A stretch of 25,686 nucleotides of DNA, taken from a virus. Below are positions 1 through 25,411 of the stretch, piece after piece (within the stretch, counting starts at the first letter, position 1; each line of letters starts with the position of its first letter). The translations under genes were made by a program, and so were the position numbers. The notes under the pieces are model-generated. The model had not been told where the DNA came from. It did no database searches and was given only the letters and a program-made list of their open reading frames with translations. The stretch is from positions 1 through 25,686 of IMG/VR virus record IMGVR_UViG_3300017772_000104. One strand, 5' to 3'.

Positions 1-1
1 A

Positions 2-193: not shown

Positions 194-215
194 ACACGAA
201 TTAATAAATAAAAAA

Positions 216-473: not shown

Positions 474-482
474 TTTTATAAT

Positions 483-1532: not shown

Positions 1533-1559
1533 ATATTAACAATTTAAAACAAAGAAAAC

Positions 1560-2780: not shown

Positions 2781-2792
2781 TAACACGAAACT

Positions 2793-4560: not shown

Positions 4561-4626
4561 TTCACAAAAGGGTGGTCACCTGATAACTAAAAATTAAAAT
4601 ACTAATACTCAAAAAAAATAGAAAAT

Positions 4627-5538: not shown

Positions 5539-5562
5539 TTTTTGGTTAAATAATACAATTAA

Positions 5563-5589
5563 GGGGTGGGGTATCCCATCCCTTTTTTT
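5563..5589 (+). terminator. Intrinsic terminator after the tail tube gene
   Basis: The arms GGGGTGGG (5563-5570) and CCCATCCC (5575-5582) pair over 8 bp with one G-U pair and a GTAT loop, followed directly by seven T residues. This is the clearest GC-rich hairpin with a T tract in the window. It would end or reduce head/tail-tube transcription before the distal tail genes. Confidence 0.85.
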
Positions 5590-5765
5590 GTAATAATTAA
5601 AAATATTTGTGAAAACGTTTGGAAAATACAAAATTGATTTTAAGGTGCTTTTAAGACGTTTTAAACAACTTTAGTGTTTTGTTAGTATAACACCATTAAA
5701 AAACCGAGAAAGTAAAAAACTCAGTAACGACAAGGGTTTCAGAGGCACAAAATTTGACATAAAAA
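5590..5765 (+). other. Intergenic region between tail tube and distal tail genes
   Basis: There is no convincing gene here. It holds the 12-mer TTTTAAGACGTT (5649-5660), a weak GTGTT...AACAC dyad, and one copy of ACAAGGGTTTC (5730-5740), which also occurs at 18578 and 19496. A poor -7-like sequence (AAAATTTG, 5749-5756) precedes the next ATG. A promoter for the distal tail genes is likely needed here because of the upstream terminator, but I cannot assign one confidently. Confidence 0.45.
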
Positions 5766-6239
5766 ATGACATCACTTAAAGAAACAAAACTTGGTTCATT
5801 GCTAAACGTCACAAAGATTGCGTTGAAAATGGATTTGATTTGGTTGCGTGTCTTTAGTGAACCGACATTCAAAAGATGGATTTTGGATTTGGTCAGGCAA
5901 GACCAATTGTTCGACCAAGGTATTGATGAGGATGGTGATATCATCGGAACATATTCCGAAGCAACTGAAATGATAAATCCAAGTAAACTTGCCGGAACAC
6001 CTTACACACTTTTTGACACCGGTGAATTTTATAATTCGTTCGTGATTAACGTTGGAAAACGTATCTTTGAAATAAATGCAGACACCACAAAAATGGATGG
6101 TGAAAGTTGGTGGATTCAAAACAACATCACAAAAGAGGCAATATTAGGATTAACGGATGAAAATAAAATCAAACTTTCTGTCGAAGTTAAAAGGCGTTTT
6201 ATCATCGAAACAAGAAAATTACTATTACAAAACTATTGA
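5766..6239 (+). CDS. Probable tail-completion or minor tail assembly protein, 157 aa
   Basis: The protein starts at ATG 5766 and ends in two adjacent stops (TGATGA). It has an amphipathic N-terminal half, then the motif FDTGEFYNSFVINVG (around residues 83-97), which resembles the 'DTG..Y.SF' core of gp10-like tail-completion proteins in phages of Bacteroidetes and others. No membrane segment is present. It sits between the terminator and the tape measure gene, a place that can also hold tail assembly chaperones. Its last 83 bases are shared with the next gene in a different frame. Role by motif resemblance and position only. Confidence 0.55.
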   Translation: MTSLKETKLGSLLNVTKIALKMDLIWLRVFSEPTFKRWILDLVRQDQLFDQGIDEDGDIIGTYSEATEMINPSKLAGTPYTLFDTGEFYNSFVINVGKRIFEINADTTKMDGESWWIQNNITKEAILGLTDENKIKLSVEVKRRFIIETRKLLLQNY

Positions 6240-6681
6240 TGATTTACCATTATACAATTGGATTGAATGTCAAAAAGGCAAGATTGAATTTGTCCGAAAA
6301 GGTGACAAAGGAACGTCAGAACAAGACAATATTATTTGGATGGACATATACGACCAATACATTAAAGAGTTTGGTCTTGGTAAATTACACATAAAGATGT
6401 TGGAAGCAATGAAGAAAAAAGCATTGTTACAACTTGAATATGTGTCAACACGAAAAGCGTTTCAACTTACAAAGATTGAAATGCAAATAACAAAATTGGA
6501 TGGAATGTTAGCGAACAAAGGTTCAGGAATATCCATCGAACAAACATTGATTCACCTTTCAAAATGGGTTGGTCATTGGTTGAATACAAAGAAACTGACA
6601 ACAAGGGAATATTTTAACTTAGTTCGAGAATTCGAACGATATAACAAACAAAGCAATGGCGAAGCAAATCAGGGCAAATGA
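6157..6681 (+). CDS. Phage protein just before tape measure, 174 aa; start uncertain
   Basis: The first ATG in this frame is 6157, which gives an unusual 83-nt overlap with the previous gene. The region that looks like a true protein begins at about residue 22 (NYYYKTIDDLPLYNW), close to the end of that overlap, but no ATG, GTG or TTG occurs there. A CTG lies at 6178. The rest is largely helical and Lys-rich, with no recognised catalytic motif. The position directly before the tape measure gene is where tail assembly chaperones usually lie, so this is a candidate, but I do not recognise the family. It overlaps the next gene by 26 nt. Confidence 0.65.
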   Translation: MKIKSNFLSKLKGVLSSKQENYYYKTIDDLPLYNWIECQKGKIEFVRKGDKGTSEQDNIIWMDIYDQYIKEFGLGKLHIKMLEAMKKKALLQLEYVSTRKAFQLTKIEMQITKLDGMLANKGSGISIEQTLIHLSKWVGHWLNTKKLTTREYFNLVREFERYNKQSNGEANQGK

Positions 6682-9600
6682 ATTATTTGAAAAGGAAGAT
6701 ATCTTTGAAGGAATTCGAAGGAGTGCCGAAAAGACAATGGTCACCTTGGAAAAGGTTGACAAAGAGTTCAAAGACCTTGGTGAAACTTTAAAAAAGAGTT
6801 TAGGAAAAGCATCTTTTGGCGGATCAAAAGAGTTAAAAGAATTTCTTGCGATGGTTGAAAAGGCGAACAACCTACAAACTCAAGCCGTAAAAATCGAAAA
6901 AGAAAAAGCCATTGCCGAACAACAAGCGGAACGATTAAAGCGTGAAAAGTTAAAAACACAAACGGCAGAAAATAGAGAACAAGAACGTCAGAACAAACAA
7001 AAACAACGTGCCTTAAAACTTGCCAAAGACGAACAAAACGCATACAAGAAACTTGTAAAGTCTACAAGGGATTTAAAAAACGAATCAAAAAGATTAGGTG
7101 CGGAATTGATTGCCTTGGAACAATCAGGAAAAAAGAACACCGCACAATATAGAAAACTTGAATCACAATACAAGCGTGTTACAAAGTCGGCACAAGCCGG
7201 TGATGTGCAACTGAAAAAACTTGATAAAACCGTTGGTGATAACTTTAGAAATGTCGGTAATTACACCGGTGCATTAAACACCCTGAAGAACGGATTGATG
7301 CAATTAGGGGTTGCCTTTGGTACGGCACAAATTGTTCGAAACGTTGCCGGTATCATTGTTGACTTTGACCAAGCACAAGCGGATTTAAGTGCCATTTCAG
7401 GAAAGACAACGGAAGAGTTAGCCGGTTTAACACAACAAGCAAAAGACCTTGGTGCAACTACTCAATTTAGTGCGACACAAATCACAGAAATGCAAATTGA
7501 GTTGGCGAAATTAGGTTTCACAACTGAACAAATTACCGCATCAACTGAAGCCGTGTCCAACTTTGCATCCGCTACCGGCTCAGATATGGCGGAAGCGTCA
7601 AAACTTGCCGGTGCAACATTGCGTGGATTTGGATTGGAAGCCGATGAAATGGAACGTGTGGTTTCCGTTCTTGGTGTGGCAACAACAAAAAGTGCATTAA
7701 GTTTTGAATCTCTTAATACATCAATGTCAACAATTAGTCCGGTCGCAAATGCTTTTGGATTTAGTGTTGAAGATACAACGGCATTACTTGGACAATTAGC
7801 AAATGCCGGTTTTGATGCATCATCAAGTGCAACCGCAACAAGAAACATTCTTTTGAATCTTGCCGATGCAAATGGTGATTTGGCTCAGGAGTTAGGCAGA
7901 CCAATAAAAAGTGCGGATGACCTTGCGGAAGGATTAAAAGAATTACAAGCAAAAGGAATTGACCTTGCAACGGCATTAGAATTGACCGACAAACGTTCGG
8001 TTGCGGCTTTTGAAACGTTCCTAAAAGGTTCAGATACATTGATTGAGTTCCGTGATTCAATTACAGATGTCAACGATGAATTGTCCGCAATGGCGGAAAA
8101 ACGTCTTGATTCGGTCAAGGGACAATTGACACTTTTATCAAGTGCGTGGGAAGGTTTCATTCTTGGTGTTGGTGATTCGGCAAACGCATCAAACATTTTC
8201 AAAGATACAATAGGTTTTGTTGCGAGAAACCTAAATACAATAATGACCGTATTGGGTAAAGTAATTAAAGGTTTTGTTCTTTACAAGTCAACAATGATTG
8301 CATTAAAAGGTGTCAACTTTTTAGTAAATGGCGGTTTCAAAACGATGTTAATTAACATAGGTAAATTAATACCGGGAACAAGGGCATACAGACTTGAACA
8401 AATTCAACTTGCAAGGGCATCAACACAAGCCGGAAAACAAATTTCGTTTATGGGTAAAATGATGACCGCTATACCTTGGCTCGTCATAATTGGGTTGGTT
8501 GTTGATTTGGCAATGTCGTTGTGGGATGTTTCAAGTGCAAGTGAAGAAGCAACAAGGCAACAAGAAAGATTGAATGCGGTAACACAACAAGGAAAGGAAC
8601 AAGGTGCAAAACTTGGTGCAAAGTTTAATGATACATTAAAGGAAGAAATTCGTTTATTAAATAATAAAATAAGAATTGAAAAAGCCAATGCAAAAACTCA
8701 AGAAGAGATTAAAGACCTTGAAGATAAAAGATTGTATAATACTGAGTTTTTAATAAGAGGTCAAATTGACAAACTTAAATTGGAAAAACAAGCCAATGAG
8801 CAAATAATACAAAGCAACAAAAACAAATTTAATTCTCAATTTATTGATGCACAATTAATTGCTCAAAATGAAGAATATGACAAAGCATTAAAAAATTTAA
8901 ACGATGCCTTGGATGAAAATATAATACAAAGAAAGGAATTGAATGCGGTTGAGAAAAAAGAAGTTAAAACAAATAAAGACAAGCCTAAAAAACAAAAGGA
9001 ATTTAACACACAATTAAAGCAAACAAATGAATATTTGTCAAAACAAAAAGAGTTGTTGCAACAATTGACAGAAATCGAACAAGATAGAGCATTGGCACGA
9101 AAGACAAAGGGCATTGATTCGGAGTTTGAAAGACAAATGAAATCATTGCAAGAAACCGGATCATTCGATGCATCACAATTGAACCAATTGATTCAGGAAC
9201 GTGCAGATATGGAAAGTGAATTTATTGACCAAAGAACGATTTATGAATTGGATGCATTAGAAGAAAAATATCGTTTGATAAAGGAAAAGGAATTGCAACA
9301 ATTGGAAGATGACCGTACAAAGAAACTTGCACAAACTGACATCACACAAGAAGCAATTGTCAAAATCGAAGCGGATTATAAAATCAAGAAAAAAGAATTG
9401 GAAGCCAATGAAGAAGCACGACAAAAAGACCGTGCAACTGAAGAGGTGATAATTGTTGAACGTGGCGAAAATGAAAAGTTGGAAGTGTATAAAAGCACCA
9501 ATGAACAAATATTAGATTTGGAAACACAATTAAGTGAAAAACTTAAAGAGTTAGGAAATCAACGACAACAAGAAACAAGGGAATTTGTCAAAGCAACTGC

Positions 9601-10303
9601 GGATTATTTTATCAAAAAGTCAAACGAAAAGATTGCACAAATAGAAAAAGAAATTCAAGCATCACAAAAGCAATATGACACCTTGAAAAAGTTAGCGGAA
9701 GAGGGTAACATTGATGCAAAAGAATCACTTGCCGAACAACAAAGAATCATTGCCGAAGCAAATAGAAAAAAGGAACAAGAACAAAAACGACAACAACGAA
9801 TTAAACTTGCCGAAAGTGTATATTCTACTTACTCACAAAAGGTTGAATCCAACTCTAAAAATCCATTAGCGGAAACGATTCGAGACACAACACTACTAAA
9901 TCAATTCATTTCATCACTACCGACATTTGAAGATGGTACAGATGACACCGGAAAAAATGGTCGTGGAATAGATGGAAAGGGCGGTTTCTTGTCCGTATTG
10001 CATCCAAACGAACGTGTTGTGCCTAAATCATTGAATGCACAAATTGGAGGGCTTACAAACGAGGAATTGAGCCGAATCGCAAACGAATACAATAATGGTA
10101 AAATTGTGCGGTCAGATTCACAACTTGGTTCGGCATTAGAGTTGTCACTTTTGGTTGGTAAATTAGACAACTTGACCAAAGTGATTCAGGACAAGCCGGA
10201 AACAAACATTGAATTGGGTGAAATCACACAAGGTGCAATGGAGATTGTAAAGTCAACCAAGGAAGGGAACACATATACATATAATAGATACAAAGTAAAA
10301 TGA
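6656..10303 (+). CDS. Tail tape measure protein, TP901 type
   Basis: This 1215-aa protein sets tail length and is ejected during DNA entry. Residues about 60-190 are a long charged coiled coil. Residues about 215-500 form the TP901-type core: DFDQAQADLSAISGKTTEELAG, LGATTQFSATQI, ASATGSDMAEASKLAGATLRGFG and GQLANAGFDASSSATATR are all visible. Hydrophobic stretches follow at about 521-565 and 606-625 (IPWLVIIGLVVDLAMSLW). A second long coiled coil covers about 660-1090. The C-terminal segment (FEDGTDD...GGFLSVLHPNERVVPKSLN) is a motif common at the end of these proteins. By length alone, a long flexible tail is expected. The stop overlaps the next start as ATGA. Confidence 0.96.
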   Translation: MAKQIRANELFEKEDIFEGIRRSAEKTMVTLEKVDKEFKDLGETLKKSLGKASFGGSKELKEFLAMVEKANNLQTQAVKIEKEKAIAEQQAERLKREKLKTQTAENREQERQNKQKQRALKLAKDEQNAYKKLVKSTRDLKNESKRLGAELIALEQSGKKNTAQYRKLESQYKRVTKSAQAGDVQLKKLDKTVGDNFRNVGNYTGALNTLKNGLMQLGVAFGTAQIVRNVAGIIVDFDQAQADLSAISGKTTEELAGLTQQAKDLGATTQFSATQITEMQIELAKLGFTTEQITASTEAVSNFASATGSDMAEASKLAGATLRGFGLEADEMERVVSVLGVATTKSALSFESLNTSMSTISPVANAFGFSVEDTTALLGQLANAGFDASSSATATRNILLNLADANGDLAQELGRPIKSADDLAEGLKELQAKGIDLATALELTDKRSVAAFETFLKGSDTLIEFRDSITDVNDELSAMAEKRLDSVKGQLTLLSSAWEGFILGVGDSANASNIFKDTIGFVARNLNTIMTVLGKVIKGFVLYKSTMIALKGVNFLVNGGFKTMLINIGKLIPGTRAYRLEQIQLARASTQAGKQISFMGKMMTAIPWLVIIGLVVDLAMSLWDVSSASEEATRQQERLNAVTQQGKEQGAKLGAKFNDTLKEEIRLLNNKIRIEKANAKTQEEIKDLEDKRLYNTEFLIRGQIDKLKLEKQANEQIIQSNKNKFNSQFIDAQLIAQNEEYDKALKNLNDALDENIIQRKELNAVEKKEVKTNKDKPKKQKEFNTQLKQTNEYLSKQKELLQQLTEIEQDRALARKTKGIDSEFERQMKSLQETGSFDASQLNQLIQERADMESEFIDQRTIYELDALEEKYRLIKEKELQQLEDDRTKKLAQTDITQEAIVKIEADYKIKKKELEANEEARQKDRATEEVIIVERGENEKLEVYKSTNEQILDLETQLSEKLKELGNQRQQETREFVKATADYFIKKSNEKIAQIEKEIQASQKQYDTLKKLAEEGNIDAKESLAEQQRIIAEANRKKEQEQKRQQRIKLAESVYSTYSQKVESNSKNPLAETIRDTTLLNQFISSLPTFEDGTDDTGKNGRGIDGKGGFLSVLHPNERVVPKSLNAQIGGLTNEELSRIANEYNNGKIVRSDSQLGSALELSLLVGKLDNLTKVIQDKPETNIELGEITQGAMEIVKSTKEGNTYTYNRYKVK

Positions 10304-12072
10304 GGCATTTTCTAAACGGTATTGAAGTCGCACCAAGAAATATTGATGATATTGGCGTTGTTTCAGATTTTTCAGGCAATCCGGATATCTTATCATTAAA
10401 CACCGAATCGGTAATTTTACCAAGGGAAGCAAATGATTTGATCCGTGAGCATATCAACAACGTGGGATTGTTTGAGGGAATTCCGTATTCGGTTGTCACA
10501 AGCGGTCAAACGTTGGAATACTTTGTGGATTTGACAGATGGATTAAAGGTTCGTGAACACGAGGTTGAAGTTAATTTGAAAAAGCGTGGTGATCTTGACA
10601 TCTTTCGTGAACGTGCAAACGGAACATCGTTTGATTTGATGTTGAAAAACGGTGTAATATTCGAAACAAAAAACGTTCCTTATTTTGTTATCAAGGACAA
10701 CCAAGGTGAATTGATTTTAAACCTTGCAATCACCACTTACATAATGACCAAAGAAATCATTCAAGCCGGTTATGAATTGCAAGAAGCCGGTCAAAATTTG
10801 ATTAGTGCATCAACACCAATTATTGGTTTGGGTGTCGGTGTTCCTCCGGTGGTAGTTACGTCATACGATGTAGGTGCAATTGTAAGTGCATCAATAATTT
10901 TTATTTTTAAAGTTGCATATTACGTTCTTTTAACACTTGCATTGATTAAATTGGCAAGTGAATTGATTAATGTATTATTTCCGGCAAAGAAATATTTAAA
11001 GGCAACTTATTTTGTTGAGATTATGCGAAAGAGTTGTGCCTACTTTGGTTATGACTTTCAATCAACATTATTGAGTGATTCACCTTACTTTGCTTTGATG
11101 CCGGTTCCGTTGACTCCTGAACGTGAATCAATATTTGATGCACAATTGTTTGGTTCGTTTACAACACAAAATTTTAGCACCGGTTTACCAAGTGCATCGG
11201 ACACGGTTGCAACATTTGGTCAATTTATTGATTCACTTGAAACAATGTTTAACGCACGATTGATTGTTCGTGATGGTGTGGTTCGTATTGAAAGGCGTGA
11301 TTGGTTAGAAAATCAAGCAATAAATATGATTGAACCGGCTTTGAATTTGCAGTCTGACCGTGATATTGAATTTCAATACAATGCACTTGATATTTGGAAA
11401 CGTTACTACATTCATTATGCACTTGATTATTCCGACATTCATACATTGGATCATATTACATATGACAAACACGATGCGGAATTCTCAACTGAACCGGATT
11501 TTCCGGTTGTCAATGAAGATTTAGTGACCATAAAAGGTTTAAACGATGTTTCGATTCCTTATTCATTAGGTGCAAGAAAAAACGGTTTAAATTTTATTGA
11601 ACAATTTGCAAAAGGAGTGTTTACCCTCATCGACACGGTGGCAAATGTGTTCGGTGGCAATTCAAACTTTGCATCACAAATTGATTCACGAAAAAATGCC
11701 TTGCAAATTAGTCAAACTTATTTTTCGACAACAAAAGTTCTTTATGGACAAACCGGTCAAGTCATTGCCAATGAGTTGGTTCAGGAAGAAAATTATTTCG
11801 ACAATGTAAGTGCAAAGGCGTTGTGGGATAAGTACCATTATATTAATGAAATCCAAGAAAATGATTGGAAAATTTACGAAAATAGTAGAATTCGCTTATC
11901 TCACGAACAATTCGTAACTTTGTTAGGCAATAATTTTGCAGAAATCAACGGAATTATGAGTGAAATCTTGCGAATTGAGTGGATTGACGAAAAAAGTTTC
12001 GCACAAATAACGTACAGAACACGAAATGATTGGGCAAACAACAAGGTGATTACACAAACAATTGATGAATAA
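10300..12072 (+). CDS. Distal tail/tail-tip structural protein with internal hydrophobic segment, 590 aa
   Basis: This gene lies directly after the tape measure gene (ATGA overlap), the usual place of distal tail and tail-hub proteins. The N-terminal 130 residues are beta-rich with a DxxGVVSDFSGNPDILSLNTESV start. Residues about 186-227 are strongly hydrophobic (GAIVSASIIFIFKVAYYVLL and following), which is unusual for a virion surface protein and could enter the host envelope. The rest is mixed, with VVRIERRDWLENQ in the middle and beta segments toward the end. No hydrolase motif was seen. The distal-tail role is inferred from position and size; the exact family is not recognised. Confidence 0.7.
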   Translation: MRHFLNGIEVAPRNIDDIGVVSDFSGNPDILSLNTESVILPREANDLIREHINNVGLFEGIPYSVVTSGQTLEYFVDLTDGLKVREHEVEVNLKKRGDLDIFRERANGTSFDLMLKNGVIFETKNVPYFVIKDNQGELILNLAITTYIMTKEIIQAGYELQEAGQNLISASTPIIGLGVGVPPVVVTSYDVGAIVSASIIFIFKVAYYVLLTLALIKLASELINVLFPAKKYLKATYFVEIMRKSCAYFGYDFQSTLLSDSPYFALMPVPLTPERESIFDAQLFGSFTTQNFSTGLPSASDTVATFGQFIDSLETMFNARLIVRDGVVRIERRDWLENQAINMIEPALNLQSDRDIEFQYNALDIWKRYYIHYALDYSDIHTLDHITYDKHDAEFSTEPDFPVVNEDLVTIKGLNDVSIPYSLGARKNGLNFIEQFAKGVFTLIDTVANVFGGNSNFASQIDSRKNALQISQTYFSTTKVLYGQTGQVIANELVQEENYFDNVSAKALWDKYHYINEIQENDWKIYENSRIRLSHEQFVTLLGNNFAEINGIMSEILRIEWIDEKSFAQITYRTRNDWANNKVITQTIDE

Positions 12073-12290
12073 TGGATGAATTTGTTAAAATAAGCCAAGA
12101 TTTAAAGAAAAACTTGAAAAGTTTGCAAGAAATGAACAATCAAATGTTGAAAACTATTCAGGAACAAGAACCGGAAAAGGTGAATGAATTGCTAAATGAT
12201 AATAACGCATTAATCAAAGCATTAAACAACCAAGATGTCAATGCGGTGATGAATATACATAAGAAATATGCCGATAAGAATAACAAATAA
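12072..12290 (+). CDS. Small coiled-coil protein, 72 aa
   Basis: The start overlaps the preceding stop (TAATG), and the end overlaps the next gene by 23 nt, so it is fully embedded in the tail operon. The sequence is almost entirely helical and charged: leucines and methionines recur at heptad-like spacing in the KKNLKSLQEMNNQMLKTIQEQ region. It has no membrane segment. A small helical linker or assembly factor of the tail tip is possible; no family was recognised. Confidence 0.75.
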   Translation: MDEFVKISQDLKKNLKSLQEMNNQMLKTIQEQEPEKVNELLNDNNALIKALNNQDVNAVMNIHKKYADKNNK

Positions 12291-14511
12291 ATCGTTTAGG
12301 GATGTATTCAATAATTCTTTGACATATGTCAAAGGAAACGTTGGTGATCCGATACAATCATCGTTTACGATTGAAGAAAGTATTGCGGTAAATTCTGAAG
12401 ATAATAACACTTTGCAAAATAGTGTATTACAAAACATTATCACGTGGGTTGGCGGTAACTTTGAGGATGAAGGTTTTCGTGCCGGTCAAACAATTACAAT
12501 CACAACTTACACAATTTCAACCGGTGTATATTTAGCACAAACGACAACAACAATTGATTGGGTTATTGACAACCAAATGAAAGTTGCATCAACGTTGTCA
12601 AGTTGGTACACATTTCCTGATGAAGCGGTTTCAATATTTACATCATCGGCAAGGGAAGGTTTGAAACTTGACGTTAACAATGTGGCAAATGGCACACAAG
12701 GTTCGCAATATAGTTTGATTGATGGCGAATCATCAACATTTACTTTTGACCTGACCGGTACTTTTCCGGTGCAAGGTGTTCCGGTTGGAAATCAATCCGG
12801 TATGTTTAGCGTATCAACATCAATTGATTTGGCATCATCTTCCGGTGGTGTTCGTACCTATACATTATCGACAAGTTGGATTCAAAGCGGTTTATATAAT
12901 TCCGCAAATTATGACTTTGATAATTGCCTTAAATTATATTTAAGAATGTCGTGGGAAACCGTAATTGGTGAACCATATGACAATCGTATTGAAATATTTA
13001 ATGATGATGCAAACACCGGATGGTTTAATGAAGGTCATAATACTGATGTGATTGATGCAACCATTGTTCAAGGTATAAGTGATGTTTCTTATTGTGATGA
13101 AACCATTGCAACATTTGTGATTGATTCAAGTGCAACCGATTTTGCATTTGGTGGTTCTTATGTTTCAGGTCTTGATAACTATTACAAAAACAAACCGGAA
13201 TCCGCATCAAAATATGCGATGACATTGGGTTCGGTTTTAATGAATGTCGGTCAAAGTTATGTATCACAAGCAAATGAAGATGGTGCGAAATGGTTCTTTG
13301 AAACGTTGTCAGTAATTACCAACGGAACACAACACACTTTCAACGTAAAAATTACACCGAATCCGGCATTTGAAACATTTATTGGTGGTCGTTCTGAAGG
13401 TGACCGCACATTTTATTTGTGGTGTAAGGTTGGCAATGTCAACTTGTTGGTGTTTAACGGACAGATGTCGTGTCCTCCGGTGGGAATTTTACCGCTTACA
13501 ATGGTAAAATCGGAATACTTTGACCATAGTCAACAATTGACAGACACAACGGAATTAAAAACCGGTAACACCGGAAACGTTGAAGATGATTTTGCATTTT
13601 GCGGAAAGTTTAGATTACCGGCAAAGTTTGTGAACGATTACGTCAATGCAAGAATCGAAGCATACAATTTGACAACGGATCAAAAATTTACGTTGCAACA
13701 AACAAACTTTAATTTGTCAGGCATTCCGCTTGTAAACTTTCAACAAGTAATTGACCTTGAATCACCGGTTTTTCCATCGTTGCCAACGACATCGGTCAAA
13801 CGTAATGCAAGACTTGTGAATGATTCATCGGCATCATTAGGAATTAACTACGGTGTTCGAATTTATTTTCCTTTCATATATAGATGGGAATATTGGATTG
13901 CTCAACTCAATGCGAATGCGGATTTTTATCCAAACAATCAAACAAGGGATTGGGTTGATTACGGCACAACCGGTGATTGGCGTTTGCGTATGGTTGTCGA
14001 AGTTGCAAGGGCAGAAAATTTATATCAATACACGGATTTTGTGAATATTCTTGACTACAATTCCGATGCAAATATTCAACAACAAATTGAATTGTATATT
14101 GATTCAAGTTCAACTAATGTTCAGGTTGTGACCGAAGGTCAATTAATGCGAGTAGTGGCAACACACACACTTGTTGATGGTTCGGCTTGGACACAAGATT
14201 CGGTTTGGGGAATGATAACCGTTGAACCAAAAGAATCAAGTCCAAGATGGATATCGTCAACGGCAATTGATTATGATGGTAATACATCGAATCCATTAAC
14301 ACCTTTGAGTGGTTTAAGATGTGATTTAACGTTTCCAACAACAGACGTTGCAAGATTGGAATGTTTCTTTGATCCGGACAAAATAAATCTTTCTAATGGT
14401 GTAAAATTTACATCGAAAATAAAAGGTTGCACCGATGGTGAAATTGTAAAAATGACAACATCAGGAATGCAGAAATTGACAACAAGTAATGACCAAAAAA
14501 TAAAAAGTTAA
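12268..14511 (+). CDS. Large beta-rich tail-tip or fibre-type protein, 747 aa
   Basis: ATG 12268 begins MPIRITNKSFRDVFNNSLTY. The protein is Ser/Thr/Asn/Gly-rich and almost wholly predicted beta, with alternating hydrophobic residues and many aromatic positions, typical of tail-tip, baseplate-upper or receptor-contact proteins. Around residues 635-725 is a more conserved-looking block with QLMRVVATHTLVDGSAWTQD and WGMITVEPKESSPRWISST, followed by a Cys-bearing end. No catalytic motif is visible. It is the longest protein after the tape measure and lies in the middle of the tail-tip block. A receptor-related or scaffold role in the tail tip is inferred. Confidence 0.75.
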   Translation: MPIRITNKSFRDVFNNSLTYVKGNVGDPIQSSFTIEESIAVNSEDNNTLQNSVLQNIITWVGGNFEDEGFRAGQTITITTYTISTGVYLAQTTTTIDWVIDNQMKVASTLSSWYTFPDEAVSIFTSSAREGLKLDVNNVANGTQGSQYSLIDGESSTFTFDLTGTFPVQGVPVGNQSGMFSVSTSIDLASSSGGVRTYTLSTSWIQSGLYNSANYDFDNCLKLYLRMSWETVIGEPYDNRIEIFNDDANTGWFNEGHNTDVIDATIVQGISDVSYCDETIATFVIDSSATDFAFGGSYVSGLDNYYKNKPESASKYAMTLGSVLMNVGQSYVSQANEDGAKWFFETLSVITNGTQHTFNVKITPNPAFETFIGGRSEGDRTFYLWCKVGNVNLLVFNGQMSCPPVGILPLTMVKSEYFDHSQQLTDTTELKTGNTGNVEDDFAFCGKFRLPAKFVNDYVNARIEAYNLTTDQKFTLQQTNFNLSGIPLVNFQQVIDLESPVFPSLPTTSVKRNARLVNDSSASLGINYGVRIYFPFIYRWEYWIAQLNANADFYPNNQTRDWVDYGTTGDWRLRMVVEVARAENLYQYTDFVNILDYNSDANIQQQIELYIDSSSTNVQVVTEGQLMRVVATHTLVDGSAWTQDSVWGMITVEPKESSPRWISSTAIDYDGNTSNPLTPLSGLRCDLTFPTTDVARLECFFDPDKINLSNGVKFTSKIKGCTDGEIVKMTTSGMQKLTTSNDQKIKS

Positions 14512-14514
14512 AAG

Positions 14515-15165
14515 ATGGGACAACAACAAATTAACCAATACGCAATTGAACGAACAACATTCGGTGATGATGACTATTATGACATTGATTATTGGAACGG
14601 TTCAGTATATCAAACCGCAAAGATAAAAGGTTCGGTTCTAAAAGCCGGTGCAAGTGGCATTGGATTATTTTCACAAACCGCAGATGGTACATTAATACAA
14701 AACACCACAACCGAAACAAGTTTGCTTGGAAGCGGTCAAGGTTCTTTGCAAGTTACTTCAAACACTTTTGCGGTAGGTAGTTCATACATATTAAAAATGT
14801 GCGGAAACATTAGTTGTGTAAATAATTCAGATATTGTGTTGAACGTGAAAAGCGGTTCGGTAATTTTAGGAACAACCGGAACGATACAATTGCCACAGAT
14901 AAACGCACAAACGTTTGAATTGGAATTGAATTTCACGGTTCGACAAATTGGTGTTTCAGGCGTTGCCGATATTGTTATGAATGGAGAATTTACATACATA
15001 CAACATTCATCAACTGATTTACAAGGTCACACATTTATCAGTCAGAACAACACAACGTTTGACACAACCGCAGACAACACACTTGATGTAACGTGGGCGT
15101 GGCAAAGTGCAGATGCATCAAACCGCATCAATTCAGTAGTTACTAATTTAAGACGAACGTACTAA
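14515..15165 (+). CDS. Phage fibre-type jelly-roll protein, 216 aa
   Basis: The first about 45 residues look like an attachment segment (DDDYYDIDYWNGSVYQTAKIKGS). The rest matches a recurring phage/virus pattern: GLFSQTADGTLIQNTTTETSL, LGSGQGSLQVTSNTFAVGSS, CGNISCVNNSDIVLNVKSG and later NTLDVTWAWQSADASNRI. This pattern occurs at the C-terminus of many predicted tail-fibre or virion-surface proteins, probably as a trimeric jelly-roll. No enzyme motif is present. Its place behind the large tail-tip gene supports a fibre or receptor-contact role. The stop overlaps the next start (TAATG). Confidence 0.75.
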   Translation: MGQQQINQYAIERTTFGDDDYYDIDYWNGSVYQTAKIKGSVLKAGASGIGLFSQTADGTLIQNTTTETSLLGSGQGSLQVTSNTFAVGSSYILKMCGNISCVNNSDIVLNVKSGSVILGTTGTIQLPQINAQTFELELNFTVRQIGVSGVADIVMNGEFTYIQHSSTDLQGHTFISQNNTTFDTTADNTLDVTWAWQSADASNRINSVVTNLRRTY

Positions 15166-16352
15166 TGTGCCAATGTTTACAACTCACAATTGATGCCGGA
15201 ACAACCGGAGTTCAAACGACAATCGCAAGTGCCGGAGGTACATATAACGGTGTTAATTATTGGACATTTACATATGATACATATACAATTGTAATTTGGT
15301 CAACCGGTTCATTATGGATTGCATCACCGGTTCTTGGAGATGCATCAGGAACACAAACAAGATATGCACCAAGTCCGCTTGGTGATTGTCCTGAAACATC
15401 ACTTGGTTCACCGGTAAACAATTTTTGGATTAATGCCGGAACAATTACAGACTTAAAAACATTCACAACTTTAGGTGTTCCGTGTCCGGATGACACAAAT
15501 TGTGAGAATCAAGACAGAACATTCCGTGAATATGGAAGCATAAAACTACCGGAAGTCGTTCAGGAACAAGATAGGGGTTTAAAAGAATGTTGTTGTGTTT
15601 ATAAGGTTCTTGGTGACACCGCAAAAACAGATTGGAAAAACGACCTTTCAAGTGCTTGGATTAAACTTTCCGCAGTAAGTGACACGGCAACATTCAGATT
15701 GAAAAAGAATGGTGTACTCGCAACATATACACCGACAAGTGTACCTTTCCCAAATGAAGCAAATGCGTTTTATACAACTGTTGATTGGGGTGATGTTATA
15801 ACATCCGATGGTGTGGGTTGTTACACAATTGAAATTCAATATTCAATTAGCGGTATTACCGGCACAATTGTTTGGGGAACATATGACCTTGAAGCGTATT
15901 CAATAAGCAATGCATTAAACACGGCAAGAATCCGTGCGATATTTAACGGATATCAAGAAATTGAACAAATTAATTTTACCGGTGCAGATGTTCAAAGCAC
16001 ATTTAGGTTCTTTGGTTACATTGGTAACAGACAACCGAACACCGAAATTGATAATATCATATACAACAATAGAGAAATGAAGCGTGTGATTCGTGAGAAT
16101 CTAAACACATATCAGTTGATAACTGATCCGAGTGACGATTGTATCATTCGACCATTAGTTGACCTTTATTTGTTAAGTGAAAACCAATTATTTATTTCAG
16201 ATTATAACGCACATAATCCATCGTATTTCATTCAAGATTTGCCGGTGATAGTCGAAGAAAGTCCGGAATTAGAATATTATGATTTTAGTCGTAAAGTGAA
16301 ATTGACTTGCACGTTGTCGGATAAATTCAAAAACAAACGCACATACTATTAA
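15165..16352 (+). CDS. Tail-tip structural protein with Cys-rich segment, 395 aa
   Basis: ATG 15165 overlaps the preceding stop and gives MCQCLQLTIDAG. Residues 1-110 are beta-rich and aromatic (NYWTFTYDTYTIVIWSTGSLW). A Cys cluster appears near residue 143-146 (KECCCVYKVLGD), then an Ig-like segment (DTATFRLKKNGVLATYTPTSV, followed by VDWGDVITSDGVGCYTIEI), and a final region with RAIFNGYQEIEQINFTGADV. It is the last gene before the lysis block, where host-contact proteins often lie. No hydrolase motif was found. I infer a tail-tip or baseplate component; the family is not recognised. Confidence 0.7.
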   Translation: MCQCLQLTIDAGTTGVQTTIASAGGTYNGVNYWTFTYDTYTIVIWSTGSLWIASPVLGDASGTQTRYAPSPLGDCPETSLGSPVNNFWINAGTITDLKTFTTLGVPCPDDTNCENQDRTFREYGSIKLPEVVQEQDRGLKECCCVYKVLGDTAKTDWKNDLSSAWIKLSAVSDTATFRLKKNGVLATYTPTSVPFPNEANAFYTTVDWGDVITSDGVGCYTIEIQYSISGITGTIVWGTYDLEAYSISNALNTARIRAIFNGYQEIEQINFTGADVQSTFRFFGYIGNRQPNTEIDNIIYNNREMKRVIRENLNTYQLITDPSDDCIIRPLVDLYLLSENQLFISDYNAHNPSYFIQDLPVIVEESPELEYYDFSRKVKLTCTLSDKFKNKRTYY

Positions 16353-16353
16353 A

Positions 16354-16677
16354 ATGAAAGGGATGGAAAATTTTGGTGATATTATAGCAATGGGGATTGG
16401 AATGTTTGGTGCGTTCCTGAAGGGTTTAAAAAAGAAACTAAAAACGCCAACAATTATTCTTGCAATGACAATTGCCGGAGTCCTTACATATTCGGTGACC
16501 GGTGTGATAGAAATATTTTATCACGATGCACCGCCAAAAATAGTCATCCTAATTTCATTCATTGTTGGATGGTTAGCAAACGAATTAACAACGACACTTG
16601 ACCAAGCAATTGGTGATTTGTACGAAATATTTATAAATTGGCTAAAAGACAAAATGAACAAAGGGGGAAAAAAATGA
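16354..16677 (+). CDS. Putative holin, 107 aa
   Basis: The protein is small, with a short amphipathic N-terminal helix (about 8-24), a Lys-rich turn (25-30) and two likely membrane segments: PTIILAMTIAGVLTYSVTGV (32-51) and KIVILISFIVGWLANELTTT (62-81), followed by a charged end (KDKMNKGGKK). Size, topology and the position two genes before an amidase fit a holin, which makes membrane lesions that let the amidase reach the cell wall. The stop overlaps the next start as ATGA. No specific holin family was identified from sequence alone. Confidence 0.7.
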   Translation: MKGMENFGDIIAMGIGMFGAFLKGLKKKLKTPTIILAMTIAGVLTYSVTGVIEIFYHDAPPKIVILISFIVGWLANELTTTLDQAIGDLYEIFINWLKDKMNKGGKK

Positions 16678-16991
16678 AATACTTAATTATAATTTTCTTG
16701 TGGTTTTCTACAAGTGCGTTGGCATTTACGGACACAATCGTTGAACAATCCGAAGGTGTTAAAACGACAACAATAATATTTGAAAACGATACGTTGGTTC
16801 ACACCGATTCAACGGATCAAATTATTCATCAAGTCGTTATTGAAAAAATCATTGAAAAAACAAACGACATTGTTCAGGCATACAAAAAAAAAGATTATGG
16901 GAAAGTTGTTTCGCATTTACTTATAATCGCATTCGTTTGTTATTCAATTTATCTAAGACGTAAACAAAAAAAATGCAAAGACAAGAATTAG
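16674..16991 (+). CDS. Small lysis-cassette protein with signal peptide and C-terminal membrane segment, 105 aa
   Basis: ATG 16674 overlaps the holin stop (ATGA) and follows a run of five Gs, GGGGG, about 8 bases upstream, a purine-rich site unlike the A-only leaders elsewhere. Residues 1-17 (MKYLIIIFLWFSTSALA) look like a signal peptide with a signal-peptidase-I-type ALA end; there is no lipobox Cys. About 60 polar residues follow, then a membrane segment near 78-93 and a Lys-rich end (RRKQKKCKDKN). This would place the middle in the periplasm. Its position between holin and amidase makes a spanin-like or lysis-regulator role possible, but a typical spanin signature is absent. Confidence 0.75.
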   Translation: MKYLIIIFLWFSTSALAFTDTIVEQSEGVKTTTIIFENDTLVHTDSTDQIIHQVVIEKIIEKTNDIVQAYKKKDYGKVVSHLLIIAFVCYSIYLRRKQKKCKDKN

Positions 16992-17656
16992 ATTTATCAA
17001 AGATTAATTTTGTGGGAATGGATGACAATGAATTCGTTCATCAGGAAACACAAAAAACACAAATATATTTGCACCATACCGCCGGAAATTCATCCGGTGT
17101 AAATTGCATTAGATATTGGAATAATGACAAACGTGGAAGGGTTGCAACTTGTGTTGTGATATCCGGCAAAGATGCAAGGTTGTCAAAGGATGGTCAAATT
17201 TGCCAATCATTTTCATCAAAATATTGGGCGTATCATTTAGGCGTAAAAAAAGAAATATTCAAATCACAAGATGTGCCATATCAATTACTTGACAAACATA
17301 GCATTGGGGTTGAAATTTGTAATTGGGGGTATTTAAAAGAACGTGATGGGAAGTTTTATAATTATGTGAACGGTGTTGTTCCTGAAGAAGATGTTTCTGT
17401 CTTAGACAAGCCGTTCAAAGGTCACCGGTATTGGCACAAATACACCGATGCACAAATTGAATCGGTTCGTCAATTGCTTGTGTTTTGGCACGAACGTTAC
17501 AATATAGATATCACTTATAATGAATGTGATATGTGGTCATTGTCAAAACGTGCTTTGCGTGGCGTTGATGGTCTTTATACGCACAACTCGGTGCGACCTG
17601 ATAAATCGGACATTTATCCGTGTCCAAGAATGATTGAAATGCTTAAAAATTTATGA
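16973..17656 (+). CDS. N-acetylmuramoyl-L-alanine amidase (endolysin), Amidase_2 fold
   Basis: The 227-aa protein cleaves the bond between N-acetylmuramic acid and L-alanine in peptidoglycan. The zinc-site motifs of the Amidase_2/PGRP family are visible: YLHHTAG (His 34), YTHNSVRPDKSDIYPCP (His 204 and Cys 217), plus the SIGVEICN strand in the middle. No separate cell-wall-binding domain is evident, as is common for phages of Gram-negative hosts. No signal peptide is seen, so passage would need the holin. It overlaps the preceding gene by 19 nt and the following gene by ATGA. Confidence 0.92.
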   Translation: MQRQELDLSKINFVGMDDNEFVHQETQKTQIYLHHTAGNSSGVNCIRYWNNDKRGRVATCVVISGKDARLSKDGQICQSFSSKYWAYHLGVKKEIFKSQDVPYQLLDKHSIGVEICNWGYLKERDGKFYNYVNGVVPEEDVSVLDKPFKGHRYWHKYTDAQIESVRQLLVFWHERYNIDITYNECDMWSLSKRALRGVDGLYTHNSVRPDKSDIYPCPRMIEMLKNL

Positions 17657-18531
17657 AAGTAATACAACACCAAAAGAATGTTCACGAATTAATATTAAAA
17701 GGAAATCTTTCCAAAATTGCAATTTTATCGGATGTGCATTGGGACAATCCAAAATGTGATTGGGATTTGCTCAAAAGAGATTTGGATTATTGCAAAAAAG
17801 AATCGATTCCAATTTTTATCAATGGTGATTTCTTTTGCTGTATGGCGGGGAAATATGACCGCAGAGCATCTAAGTCCGGAATAAGACCGGAACATCAAAA
17901 CGACAACTATCTTGATTCTTTGGTCACAACTGCGGTTGAATGGTGGCAACCTTACGCACACTTAATTTTTCTTTTGGGATATGGCAATCACGAAACCGCA
18001 ATGATTAAAATGCACGAAACGGATTTGTTGCAAAGATTTGCCGATTTGATGAATCTTAAAGAACACACGAACATTCAAGTCGGAGGATATTCCGGTTGGA
18101 TTGTATTCACACAAACTAATTCGACAACACAAACACCTTTTAAATTACATTATCATCACGGTCTTTCAAAAGGTGCTTCGGTAGTCACCAAGGGTGCTAT
18201 TGATTTAAGTCGTGCAATGGGTATTTATGAGGGTATGGATATCTTTACACAAGGACACATTCATCAATCAATGAGTCGTGAGGATGTGCGTGATACATTA
18301 GAACACACAAAGAACGGTTACCGGATCAAAAAACAACAAGTGCATCATATGATAACCGGAACATATAAAGAAGAGTATTTCGGCACGAATGGGATGGGTT
18401 GGCACGTTGAACGTGGTGCGGAAGCACGAAATCTTGGTGGTCGCATCCTAACCTTAGAATCAAAACGCATTGCAAAAAATGGCGTTCGCACAATGAAGAA
18501 ATATGTTGATTCACATCGTTTTCCGTTATAA
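17653..18531 (+). CDS. Calcineurin-like metallophosphoesterase, 292 aa
   Basis: The conserved metal-site motifs occur in order: SDVHWD (Asp 27, His 29), NGDFF (Asp 59), GNHET (Asn 112, His 113), HYHHG (His 168/169) and GHIHQS (His 202, His 204). The full set suggests an active two-metal hydrolase acting on a phosphomonoester or phosphodiester; the substrate cannot be told from sequence. The gene is translationally coupled (ATGA) to the amidase and ends the late operon, directly before an A/T dyad and the first promoter module. No signal peptide or membrane segment is present, so it is expected in the cytoplasm. Confidence 0.88.
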   Translation: MKVIQHQKNVHELILKGNLSKIAILSDVHWDNPKCDWDLLKRDLDYCKKESIPIFINGDFFCCMAGKYDRRASKSGIRPEHQNDNYLDSLVTTAVEWWQPYAHLIFLLGYGNHETAMIKMHETDLLQRFADLMNLKEHTNIQVGGYSGWIVFTQTNSTTQTPFKLHYHHGLSKGASVVTKGAIDLSRAMGIYEGMDIFTQGHIHQSMSREDVRDTLEHTKNGYRIKKQQVHHMITGTYKEEYFGTNGMGWHVERGAEARNLGGRILTLESKRIAKNGVRTMKKYVDSHRFPL

Positions 18532-18616
18532 TCTAAAAAAACTTTAAATTTTTTTTCATTCCTAAATCGTAACAACGACAAGGGTTTCAGGCAATTCGTG
18601 TGAATGATTTTACTTT

Positions 18617-18640
18617 TTAACAAAAAAAAAGTTTTGTTAA
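18617..18640. promoter_or_regulatory. Inverted repeat overlapping the -33 element (possible operator)
   Basis: TTAACAAAA and TTTTGTTAA form a perfect 9-bp inverted repeat separated by six bases, with the right arm covering the -33 TTG. A repressor site is a natural reading. A degenerate form is present at the same place in module B (TTAACA...TTGTGG). Confidence 0.5.
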
Positions 18641-18662
18641 CTCAAATATTGTTGTATCTTTG
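18634..18662 (+). promoter_or_regulatory. Bacteroidetes-type promoter A
   Basis: TTG (18634-18636), an 18-bp spacer, and TATCTTTG (18655-18662) match the Bacteroidetes -33/-7 consensus (TTG...TAnnTTTG). The conserved leader GTCAAAC begins four bases later, near the expected transcription start. It would drive the small genes beginning at 18702. Confidence 0.8.
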
Positions 18663-18701
18663 ACTTGTCAAACAATTAAAAACAATTAAAAAACACACAC
18701 A

Positions 18702-18869
18702 ATGAACACACAAGAACAATTATTGAAAGAATGCTTAGAAAGTTTATCAAAATTATCAAAAGAAAGACTACTTGAAGAAACTGAGCAATTATTGTTGAGT
18801 CTAATTGAAAAGTCTAACACACCATTAAGAAATTTAACAAGATTAAAAGATTACTATAATAAAAAATAA
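18702..18869 (+). CDS. Small helical protein, 55 aa
   Basis: ATG 18702 is the first start after promoter A, 20 bases beyond the conserved leader motif. The protein (begins MNTQEQLLKECLESL) is charged and Leu/Glu/Lys-rich, probably one or two amphipathic helices, with no membrane segment. It is the first gene of the small-gene cluster and therefore probably expressed early. No family was recognised. Confidence 0.7.
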   Translation: MNTQEQLLKECLESLSKLSKERLLEETEQLLLSLIEKSNTPLRNLTRLKDYYNKK

Positions 18870-18882
18870 AAAACACACATCA

Positions 18883-19128
18883 ATGAATCACGAAAGGATT
18901 AACGACATTTTACACACATTAGAACAGATGCATTTTAACATTCAGTTACACGAAAAAAGAATTGAATACAACCAAAATATAATTAAAGGTTGTGCCGGTT
19001 TTCTTCCTGAACAAAAATCAATTTGCGAACACCGGATCACAATTCAAAAGATGTGCATACAACGTTGGAAACTGAGAATTGAAAAATATGCCTTTCGTTT
19101 AATATTCACCATAAACAAAACAAAATGA
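18883..19128 (+). CDS. Small helical protein, 81 aa
   Basis: ATG 18883 follows the A/C-rich leader AAACACACATCA, the same leader style as the other genes in this cluster. The protein is helical with several His residues and three Cys (KGCAGF, SICEHR, KMCIQR) but no regular zinc-finger spacing. The C-terminus is basic. Its stop overlaps the next start as ATGA. Function unknown. Confidence 0.7.
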   Translation: MNHERINDILHTLEQMHFNIQLHEKRIEYNQNIIKGCAGFLPEQKSICEHRITIQKMCIQRWKLRIEKYAFRLIFTINKTK

Positions 19129-19298
19129 CCAAAGAAGAAAAAATGGTAAAACTAATTGACCAAGCAATCGAATCAGTTGATGAATGTTTGTCAGTTGTAA
19201 CACTTGCAAAATCGGTTGCGATAATCCTGAAAGAAAATTATGGTGTCCACAACTTTGACACCTTTACAGATACTTTGAATAAAGAATTAAATAAATAG
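19125..19298 (+). CDS. Small protein, 57 aa
   Basis: The ATG overlaps the preceding stop (ATGA), which supports real translation. The protein begins MTKEEKMVKLIDQAIESV and ends in a charged LNKELNK. It appears helical and soluble. It is too short for a confident family call. Confidence 0.65.
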   Translation: MTKEEKMVKLIDQAIESVDECLSVVTLAKSVAIILKENYGVHNFDTFTDTLNKELNK

Positions 19299-19301
19299 AT
19301 T

Positions 19302-19400
19302 ATGAACAAGAATGAATTAAAAGATACGATACTTGGCTTTTTAGCGGTTTTATCAATGTTTTGGATGTATTACATATGTCTGTGGGTTTTTGTTGCTTAG
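19302..19400 (+). CDS. Tiny membrane protein, 32 aa
   Basis: Three bases after the previous stop, ATG 19302 opens a frame with a charged start (MNKNELKDT) and one continuous hydrophobic segment (ILGFLAVLSMFWMYYICLWV) reaching nearly to the end. The layout is that of a single-pass inner-membrane micropeptide. Tight spacing to the upstream gene supports it, but its shortness limits certainty. Small early phage membrane proteins often target host envelope functions; that is only a possibility here. Confidence 0.5.
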   Translation: MNKNELKDTILGFLAVLSMFWMYYICLWVFVA

Positions 19401-19446
19401 AACGTCTTAAAATGCTTTTGTGCGATTTGTATGTTGCACGATTGTT

Positions 19447-19619
19447 TGACCAAAAAAAAGTTTAAAATTTTTTTTACTCCGGAATCCTAACAAACACAAG
19501 GGTTTCGGAATTTTTTTATAAAATAAATAGAAATTAACAGAAAAAAAGTATTGTGGAAACAAATAAGTTTTATATATTTGAAGTGTCAAACAATTAAAAA
19601 CAACGAAAAACAACACAAA
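19447..19619 (+). repeat. Promoter module copy B (A/T dyad, ACAAGGGTTTC motif, promoter, conserved leader)
   Basis: This copy has an A-tract and an eight-T tract around GTTTAAA, then TCCTAACAA, ACAAGGGTTTC (19496-19506), TTAACA with an A run, a promoter and the leader GTCAAACAATTAAAAA (19585-19600). Order and spacing match copy A at 18541-18701. The stretch 19401-19446 before it has no gene; it holds AACGTCTTAAAA (19401-19412), the reverse complement of a 12-mer found at 5649-5660. Confidence 0.75.
19551..19580 (+). promoter_or_regulatory. Bacteroidetes-type promoter B
   Basis: TTG (19551-19553), a 19-bp spacer and TATATTTG (19573-19580) match the Bacteroidetes consensus. Four bases later the GTCAAAC leader starts, exactly as in promoter A. 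The first gene it serves begins at 19620. Confidence 0.8.
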
Positions 19620-19823
19620 ATGAAATTAATTAGAACAACAGACATAGTAGGGATAAAACAAGAAATCTTTATTTTAGGAAAGACTACTGCAAACGGATAC
19701 ACTCATAAATTACTAAAAAGAGTGACTTTAGAAAGTGGTACGGTAAATGAAGATAGATACCAAGGTACAGTAATAGAGGATAGAGGTAGAGTAGAGATTG
19801 TATTAGGTCATAGATATAAATAA
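19620..19823 (+). CDS. Small beta-rich protein, 67 aa
   Basis: I start at ATG 19620 (MKLIRTTDIVGIKQEIF), which follows the conserved leader. An in-frame TTG lies further upstream at 19551, but it forms the promoter's -33 element and cannot be the start of a transcript made there. The protein is basic and probably beta-rich, ending RVEIVLGHRYK. Its codon use (many ATA, GTA, AGA) looks more A+T-rich than the structural genes. No family was recognised. Confidence 0.75.
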   Translation: MKLIRTTDIVGIKQEIFILGKTTANGYTHKLLKRVTLESGTVNEDRYQGTVIEDRGRVEIVLGHRYK

Positions 19824-20597: not shown

Positions 20598-20685
20598 TAT
20601 TCAACAAATAATTGACTATTGGTCAAAAAACGGAAACTTTAATATAAATTTGTATCTCAAATTTTTAAAAGCAATAAAACAATGA
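20581..20685 (+). CDS. Possible micropeptide upstream of the DnaA-like gene, 34 aa
   Basis: ATG 20581 lies inside the end of the previous gene, and the stop TGA (20683-20685) overlaps the next start as ATGA. The product (MKNTYSIQQIIDYWSKNGNF, then LYLKFLKAIKQ) has a plausible amphipathic character. The coupling geometry is the main evidence. The same stretch also holds a weak promoter-like TAAATTTG (20645-20652), so it may instead be non-coding leader. Confidence 0.4.
   Translation: MKNTYSIQQIIDYWSKNGNFNINLYLKFLKAIKQ
20645..20652 (+). promoter_or_regulatory. Weak -7-like element before the replication genes
   Basis: TAAATTTG fits TAnnTTTG and lies 29 bases before ATG 20682. The nearest TTG (20619-20621) is 23 bp upstream, longer than the 18-19 bp in the other three promoters. 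The conserved leader is absent. Confidence 0.3.
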
Positions 20686-21071
20686 ATGAATTAATTGACA
20701 AGGTGGTTTATAAAATCCGCAAAGATAAGTTGAAACACAAAAGCCGAAAACGTGAGTTTATCAACAAAAGAATGTATTTGTATTATCTGTTAAAAGAACA
20801 CGATTATTCATATACTGACATAGGTAAGTTGTTTAATAAAAATCACGCAACCATTATTCACGGATGCCGACAATATAGAGATTTGAAAAAATCAAAGGAT
20901 GTTGGTTTGATGAATGACTTAGCGGAATATTATGCATTCTTTGAACCATATGAATTGAAAAATATTCAATTTAGAATTGCTGATGATGTGGGAAGTGCAA
21001 ATTCATTGCGAGAATTACAACGGATCAAAAACAGATTGCAAAGGGAATTATACATTGATATAAAAAAGTAA
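20682..21071 (+). CDS. Stand-alone DnaA domain IV-like DNA-binding protein
   Basis: Residues about 24-70 resemble the C-terminal DNA-binding domain of DnaA: a helix (NKRMYLYYLLKEHDYSYTDIG), then LFNKNHATIIHGCRQYRDL, matching the DnaA signature '.IG..F.rdHsTVihA...'. The HATIIHGC segment corresponds to the helix that reads the DnaA box. There is no AAA+ ATPase domain; the protein is 129 aa and continues with a helical, basic C-terminal part. In front of a replication protein and a helicase, it probably binds DnaA-box-like sites as phage initiator or as a competitor of host DnaA. The domain call is fairly strong; the role is inferred. Confidence 0.8.
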   Translation: MNELIDKVVYKIRKDKLKHKSRKREFINKRMYLYYLLKEHDYSYTDIGKLFNKNHATIIHGCRQYRDLKKSKDVGLMNDLAEYYAFFEPYELKNIQFRIADDVGSANSLRELQRIKNRLQRELYIDIKK

Positions 21072-25211: not shown

Positions 25212-25260
25212 TTGTTATATTAAAATAACTTTGTATATTGCGGTGTCAAACAATTAAAAA
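25212..25260 (+). promoter_or_regulatory. Promoter C with the conserved leader
   Basis: TTG (25212-25214), a 19-bp spacer and TATATTG (25234-25240), followed four bases later by GTCAAACAATTAAAAA (25245-25260), line up with promoters A and B, with one T missing from the -7 box. A second reading, TAACTTTG at 25226-25233, is also possible. The upstream ACAAGGGTTTC part of the module is missing here. Confidence 0.7.
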
Positions 25261-25267
25261 ACACACA

Positions 25268-25411
25268 ATGAGCAGAGAACAACAATACCAAATTAGACAA
25301 CAACAAATCATAAATGATTATCAAATGGGTTTTATTTCTTATGATGATTATTGCAGATTGATAAAAACAAATACCGACATCTTAGTGCAAGGTAAAGAAA
25401 TGATTAAATAA
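25268..25411 (+). CDS. Small protein, 47 aa
   Basis: ATG 25268 follows promoter C and the conserved leader, so this is the first gene of a new transcript. The protein is Gln-rich at its start (MSREQQYQIRQQQIINDYQM) and continues GFISYDDYCRLI, a layout reminiscent of short helical proteins with a 'G.ISxxEY' turn. Function unknown. Confidence 0.7.
   Translation: MSREQQYQIRQQQIINDYQMGFISYDDYCRLIKTNTDILVQGKEMIK

Follow-up and report, generated by a model that had tools for sequence, protein, structure and literature searches.

An insulated motif-promoter cassette, duplicated at the late/early gene boundary of a Bacteroidota-type phage, as a candidate upstream-regulated early promoter and gene-exchange junction

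Where the late genes of an uncultivated tailed phage give way to its early genes, two similar promoter modules follow one another, which raises the question of whether they form a conserved functional unit or are the residue of a duplication. The window, meaning the whole stretch of DNA analysed, comprises positions 1 to 25,686 (25.7 kb) of the virus record IMGVR_UViG_3300017772_000104. It carries an HK97-type capsid gene and a late block that contains an amidase and ends with a metallophosphoesterase (MPE) gene; small ORFs follow, and then a replication-type block encoding a DnaA domain IV-like protein, DUF6291, a C5 methylase and NinG. One module lies directly 3' of the MPE gene and the other 918 nt further on. 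Similarity to the proteins of named phages is distant only (MCP 34% to Flavobacterium phages), and no DNA match to the region was found among named phage isolates; this capsid similarity, together with the promoter type, points to the Bacteroidota as the host group. The relevant features are listed below.

5730..5740 (+): third exact ACAAGGGTTTC, intergenic, its upstream end 36 nt before a late-gene ATG (5766)
17653..18531 (+): MPE gene, end of the late block and last gene 5' of cassette 1 (Pfam PF00149, E 2e-4)
18535..18556 (+): copy 1 A/T dyad and T tract, seen in the sequence; T tract column-conserved in relatives
18560..18592 (+): copy 1 degenerate stem-loop around the motif, without a U run, unstable in the window phage
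18578..18588 (+): copy 1 ACAAGGGTTTC, putative upstream site, centre near -84 from the predicted start
18634..18636 (+): copy 1 -33 element TTG, 18 nt before the -7 box
18655..18662 (+): copy 1 -7 box TATCTTTG, consensus TAnnTTTG (PMC6847099)
18667..18701 (+): copy 1 A-rich leader, first base the predicted start, T of the -7 box at -12
18702..18869 (+): cargo ORF 1 (55 aa), with unrelated ORFs in its place in L004 and L006
19452..19475 (+): copy 2 A/T dyad and T tract, seen in the sequence
19478..19517 (+): copy 2 predicted intrinsic terminator, stem UCCGGAAUCCU / AGGGUUUCGGA, then A and U7, from folding and covariation
19496..19506 (+): copy 2 ACAAGGGTTTC, putative upstream site, seen in the sequence
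19551..19553 (+): copy 2 -33 element TTG, 19 nt before the -7 box
19573..19580 (+): copy 2 -7 box TATATTTG, seen in the sequence
19585..19619 (+): copy 2 A-rich leader, first base the predicted start
19620..19823 (+): cargo ORF 2 (67 aa), with another gene in L004, L006 and L008
20682..21071 (+): helix-turn-helix protein resembling DnaA domain IV, which marks the early/replication operon (Pfam PF08299, E 8e-15; alignment A1)
25226..25267 (+): promoter with exact leader for the third time, here lacking both motif and hairpin, seen in the sequence
25268..25411 (+): cargo ORF behind the third leader, homologue (91% aa) directly behind cassette 2 in L004

The two copies (18535-18706 and 19453-19624, ~172 nt each) align at a constant offset of 918 nt, and the alignment that had been proposed as a check ran through without a gap. 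The original prediction had named the elements common to both and had put 66 nt between motif and -7 box in each; every element was found where it had been placed, and the coordinates give exactly that distance. The composite motif-promoter pattern occurs twice in the window and in none of 100 dinucleotide shuffles. Several features add to that earlier description, namely the third exact motif (5730), the third leader (25245), the use of the copy 2 motif as a terminator arm, the compensatory changes that preserve this terminator and the swapping of genes 3' of the cassettes. The leader GTCAAACAATTAAAAA is exact at 18667, 19585 and 25245. The ACAAGGGTTTC at 5730 shares 17 nt (AACGACAAGGGTTTCAG) with copy 1, and neither a promoter nor a hairpin is present there. 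Rfam returned no match in the window at the gathering score.

The primary-sigma promoter consensus of the Bacteroidetes consists of a -33 TTTG and a -7 TAnnTTTG element; in Flavobacterium johnsoniae the -7 element spans -12 to -5, with 4-5 nt to the start (PMC6847099). Under this spacing rule the starts are predicted at 18667 and 19585, the first base of the shared leader in each copy, which places the centre of the motif near -84. Both -7 boxes are followed by 4 nt and then by the leader, and the TTG of the -33 element lies within the expected range of ~17-21 nt upstream. The modules resemble Bacteroidetes primary-sigma promoters in their two boxes, in the 4-nt gap between -7 box and leader and in an A-rich leader without a Shine-Dalgarno sequence. 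Unlike the consensus, they add a conserved element 66 nt further upstream.

We examined this added element in relatives of the window phage. A search with the MPE protein gave 80 loci, and relatives were present in 351 viral stretches; MPE identity to the window is 96-98% in L004, L005 and L006 and 64-69% in L008, L010 and L012. Of the 13 cassettes measured in this clade, 12 have motif and -7 box 66 nt apart; the exception is copy 2 of L010 at 77 nt, where an 11-nt tandem duplication lengthens the spacer. A scan for TAAYAANNACAAGGGTTTY that imposed no spacing found the motif before AT-rich intergenic Bacteroidetes-type promoters at 65-66 and 54-55 nt only: a second group (L435, L541 and others) has 65-66 nt with short forms of 54-55 nt, and L555 has 66 nt. 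Eight members of the L435 group were already among loci picked solely by their DnaA_C-like protein. A further scan, which required a spacing of 52-82 nt, is the source of L383, L414, L334 and L406 (64-65 nt), L326 (55 nt) and L361 (56 nt). The motif is thus kept in four other phage groups at 64-66 or 54-56 nt, mostly at the late/early boundary. It is absent from many related phages with 57-60% identical MPE. A literature search for the motif string gave, among the papers listed, unrelated matches only and nothing on the element, and a genome scan with a 21-mer gave four matches, all in Firmicutes MAGs and taken as chance. Patterns of hairpin and of promoter plus leader, run over viral contigs, gave mostly chance matches.

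The distance is retained where the intervening sequence is not. Over its first 44 bases the L555 spacer shares only 30-36% identity with most other representatives, yet it is still exactly 66 nt long; the original prediction of divergence at fixed spacing thus extends across lineages, with identity in parts of the spacer falling to ~30-35%. It had also named random spacing in related genomes as the outcome that should count against it, and the search of related phages instead returned 64-66, 54-56 or 77 nt, near whole helical turns. For a period of 10.5, helical phase clusters with R 0.91 over the seven spacing states and R 0.93 over the five lineage founders (simulated p 0.008, which overstates independence as the lineages share ancestry). 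Counted from the predicted start, the motif centres lie near -84, -73 and -95. The spacing in L440 is 74 nt, about 2.5 bp off phase, and L361 has no -33 TTG at the normal distance. In L538, L532, L499 and L570 the spacer carries A-tracts every 11 nt between motif and promoter, and short forms without one A-tract repeat suggest curved DNA and slippage. Since the 11-nt steps of the L435 group lie within these repeating A-tracts, slippage alone could yield them. In L058, at about 3865-4030, a reversed motif is surrounded by AAGGGTAAARCCTTA repeats, with a TATATTTG promoter downstream of them.

The genomic setting of the motif is also conserved. In the window, L435, L326 and L414 it precedes an early operon with a small GGSFNxELYL-type ORF and a DnaA_C-like gene; a DnaA_C-like gene also lies downstream of the motif in L334 and L406, and in L361 the motif stands behind an MPE gene. 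Position at the late/early boundary is therefore common to divergent phages. The protein encoded at 20682-21071 is small and DnaA domain IV-like, lacks the ATPase part and is common in early operons of these phages.

We identified a second role for the same bases in copy 2, where the motif is also the 3' arm of the UCCGGAAUCCU/AGGGUUUCGGA stem, which is followed by U7 (-14.6 kcal/mol, z -4.8). The L010 hairpin is more stable still (-19.7 kcal/mol, z -5.3), compensating changes occur in relatives, and covariation over the terminator reaches 0.195 vs at most 0.108 when slid. With its stable stem, U run and compensatory change, the copy 2 hairpin is predicted to be an intrinsic terminator. Copy 1 reaches -4.9 kcal/mol without a U run; its stem is fair in L007 (-10.9 kcal/mol) and poor in the window and L004. 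A stem-loop directly 5' of the promoter is accordingly clear in copy 2 and relatives and weak in copy 1. Folding of L435, L383 and L326 gave no stable stem and no U run, yet these phages keep motif and spacing, so the hairpin accounts for part of the conservation, in the window clade. The remaining conservation across clades would be explained by the linear motif and its distance; neither hairpin nor motif appears to cover everything. The opposite of the copy 2 arrangement is seen in L440, L422 and L361, whose terminator-like hairpin has ACAAGGGTTTC as its 5' arm, with GAAACCCTTGT or TGAAAC and then a T run.

Behind the cassettes, the first gene is exchanged between phages whose flanking DNA is ~90% identical. 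The window and L004 are ~93% identical through cassette 1 to 18709 (ATG 18702), where the first ORF differs; the match resumes at 18825-19623 (ATG 19620), is lost again and returns from 20086. In L004, cassette 2 is followed by the gene that the window has behind its 25245 leader, and cassette 1 by a gene that the window has behind cassette 2. Among 37 distinct motif cassettes we counted 21 first-gene families; the first gene differed in 23 of 26 pairs with 90-95% upstream identity, and synteny resumed in all ten testable pairs. Distant clades hold common cargo: cargo ORF 1 has a homologue in L555 (51% aa) that also lies behind a motif cassette, and L008 and L556 share another (49% aa). The same swapping of genes is seen in a second clade, which lacks the motif but has a similar promoter and a G+C-rich terminator. 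This second type of cassette stands behind the MPE gene, with a G+C-rich terminator and T7 at a near-constant distance from a GTTTTGCAGATATGAAA promoter and with differing first genes, in L013, L015, L020-L022, L024, L027, L028, L031, L032, L034-L038, L040, L047, L048, L052 and L057.

Several other explanations have to be weighed against regulation from an upstream site. A recent tandem duplication without a function of its own, or a chance resemblance, is highly improbable. Copies that are just 918 nt apart and free of gaps are what a recent event would leave, but two cassettes also lie 0.8-1.15 kb apart in L004, L005, L006, L008, L010 and L012, and in their upstream halves L008 copy 2 and window copy 2 agree at 88%, L008 copy 2 and L008 copy 1 at only 66%. 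Because these halves group by copy, the pair predates these phages, with both copies retained, and the sequence relationships indicate that the duplication is old; the original prediction that it was not only a recent one agrees with the presence of both copies in relatives whose neighbouring protein is ~60-69% identical. Relatives with both copies and copy-wise grouping exclude recent duplication, as the shuffles exclude chance. Less easily set aside, though we still regard it as unlikely, is the reading in which ACAAGGGTTTC does no more than supply the 3' arm of an intrinsic terminator for transcription arriving from upstream, the spacing being constant because the cassettes are homologous and short and not because a protein spans the distance to the promoter. 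The stable stem and U run of copy 2 recur in copies of L004, L008, L010 and L012, the stem covaries, L010 copy 2 alters motif and 5' arm together, and L012 copy 1 has another stem sequence at the same place. Since L010 copy 2 and L012 copy 1 retain the hairpin with the motif core altered or lost, a protein site as the sole role of these bases is weakened as well. As a full account, however, the terminator arm is excluded by L435, L383 and L326, which keep motif and spacing without a stable hairpin; moreover, L555 folds differently, the motif is the 5' arm in L361, L440 and L422, and spacing steps of about one helical turn are not expected of a pure terminator.

Alternatively, the motif might be a repressor or origin-related site, at which an early phage protein (the DnaA_C-like one, for example) would shut off this region or replicate from it; we judge this quite improbable. 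All motif phages whose downstream region could be inspected have a gene for a DnaA_C-like protein in the operon that follows, and a further copy of the motif stands near a late-gene start at 5730. However, the second-clade phages L015, L046 and L067 have the protein without the motif, which leaves a tie between the two unsupported, and in our own comparison with TTATNCACA the motif is unlike a DnaA box. It is likewise improbable that the cassette is kept mainly as a homology block for swaps of accessory genes, motif and spacing being conserved simply as parts of that block. Identity that drops sharply at the start codon behind both cassettes and returns one gene later, genes that have moved among cassette 1, cassette 2 and the 25245 leader, and the cargo common to distant clades all favour such a recombination cassette. 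Against it, copies within a genome are not generally closer to each other than to the same copy elsewhere; L012 alone suggests homogenisation, and general homogenisation within genomes was rejected on this ground. As the copies are not generally homogenised, recombination leaves unexplained why motif and distance are kept while the spacer is not.

On balance, we consider it probable that each module works as an insulated early promoter under upstream regulation and, at the same time, as a junction for gene exchange. The cassette would begin with a stop signal (T tract and stem-loop, a full predicted intrinsic terminator in copy 2). Next would come the putative recognition site ACAAGGGTTTY and, after A/T-rich DNA whose length is fixed in helical terms, a primary-sigma promoter (-33 TTG, -7 TAnnTTTG), with the A-rich leader running on from +1. 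Each copy would start an operon of early genes in a Bacteroidota-type tailed phage, and a putative protein at the motif may act in the manner of a class I-type activator near -84, -73 or -95. Every cassette runs up to a start codon and recurs both inside one genome and from one phage to another, which suggests that it also serves as an exchange junction for small accessory genes. The functional unit of the original prediction thus stands insofar as the cassettes behave as a conserved operon-start unit (66 nt in nearly all clade cassettes, an ancient pair); the sequences themselves document its architecture, spacing, age and boundary position, the covarying terminator and the swapped genes, and promoter activation, early timing and binding at the motif are what we infer beyond this. 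More tentatively, ACAAGGGTTTY may be the site of an undescribed transcription factor that activates early promoters in a wide set of uncultivated Bacteroidota phages, phased near -73, -84 and -95, with the same bases acting in some clades as a terminator arm that insulates the cassette.

Little seems to be known about the timing of early genes in Bacteroidota phages, with their unusual promoters. The element supplies a defined site, a rule for its distance and relatives for comparison, which makes the use of an upstream activator testable in such phages. Candidate host-interaction genes should be easy to gather, since the cassettes also mark entry and exit points of small accessory genes, and expression parts for Bacteroidota could be drawn from the conserved promoter and leader.

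Among known systems, class I activator promoters offer a parallel for the phased distances. CRP acts at -61.5, -72.5, -82.5 or -92.5, on the polymerase face (PMC5352689), and the motif centres near -84, -73 and -95, counted from a predicted start, likewise move in one-turn steps. They differ from class I CRP promoters in sigma factor and promoter type, and in a motif that is not a clear palindrome; the activator here is putative.

Moron-type genes of lambdoid phages are accessory genes with their own promoter and terminator. The window cassettes share with them the delivery of an accessory gene together with both signals. In contrast to morons, they stay put and drive whole early operons, and it is mainly the first gene that changes.

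The promoter early stem-loop (PeSL) cassettes of T4-type phages, reportedly described by Arbiol and colleagues in 2010, are said to consist of a stem-loop and then an early promoter, repeated in the genome beside small exchanged genes. The window cassettes are similar in this order, in their occurrence in several copies per genome (two full cassettes in the window, L004, L006, L008, L010 and L012, plus a partial third) and in the exchange of neighbouring genes with breakpoints at the cassette. They differ from PeSLs in the sequence-specific upstream motif at a helically phased distance, in having only two full copies per genome and in lacking any sequence relation; the PeSL belongs to T4-type phages with a sigma-70 early promoter, whereas the window combines a Bacteroidetes -33/-7 promoter with an HK97-type capsid protein. 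By this comparison the PeSL appears to be the nearest analogue in behaviour, with the window cassette standing outside that class by both sequence and promoter type.
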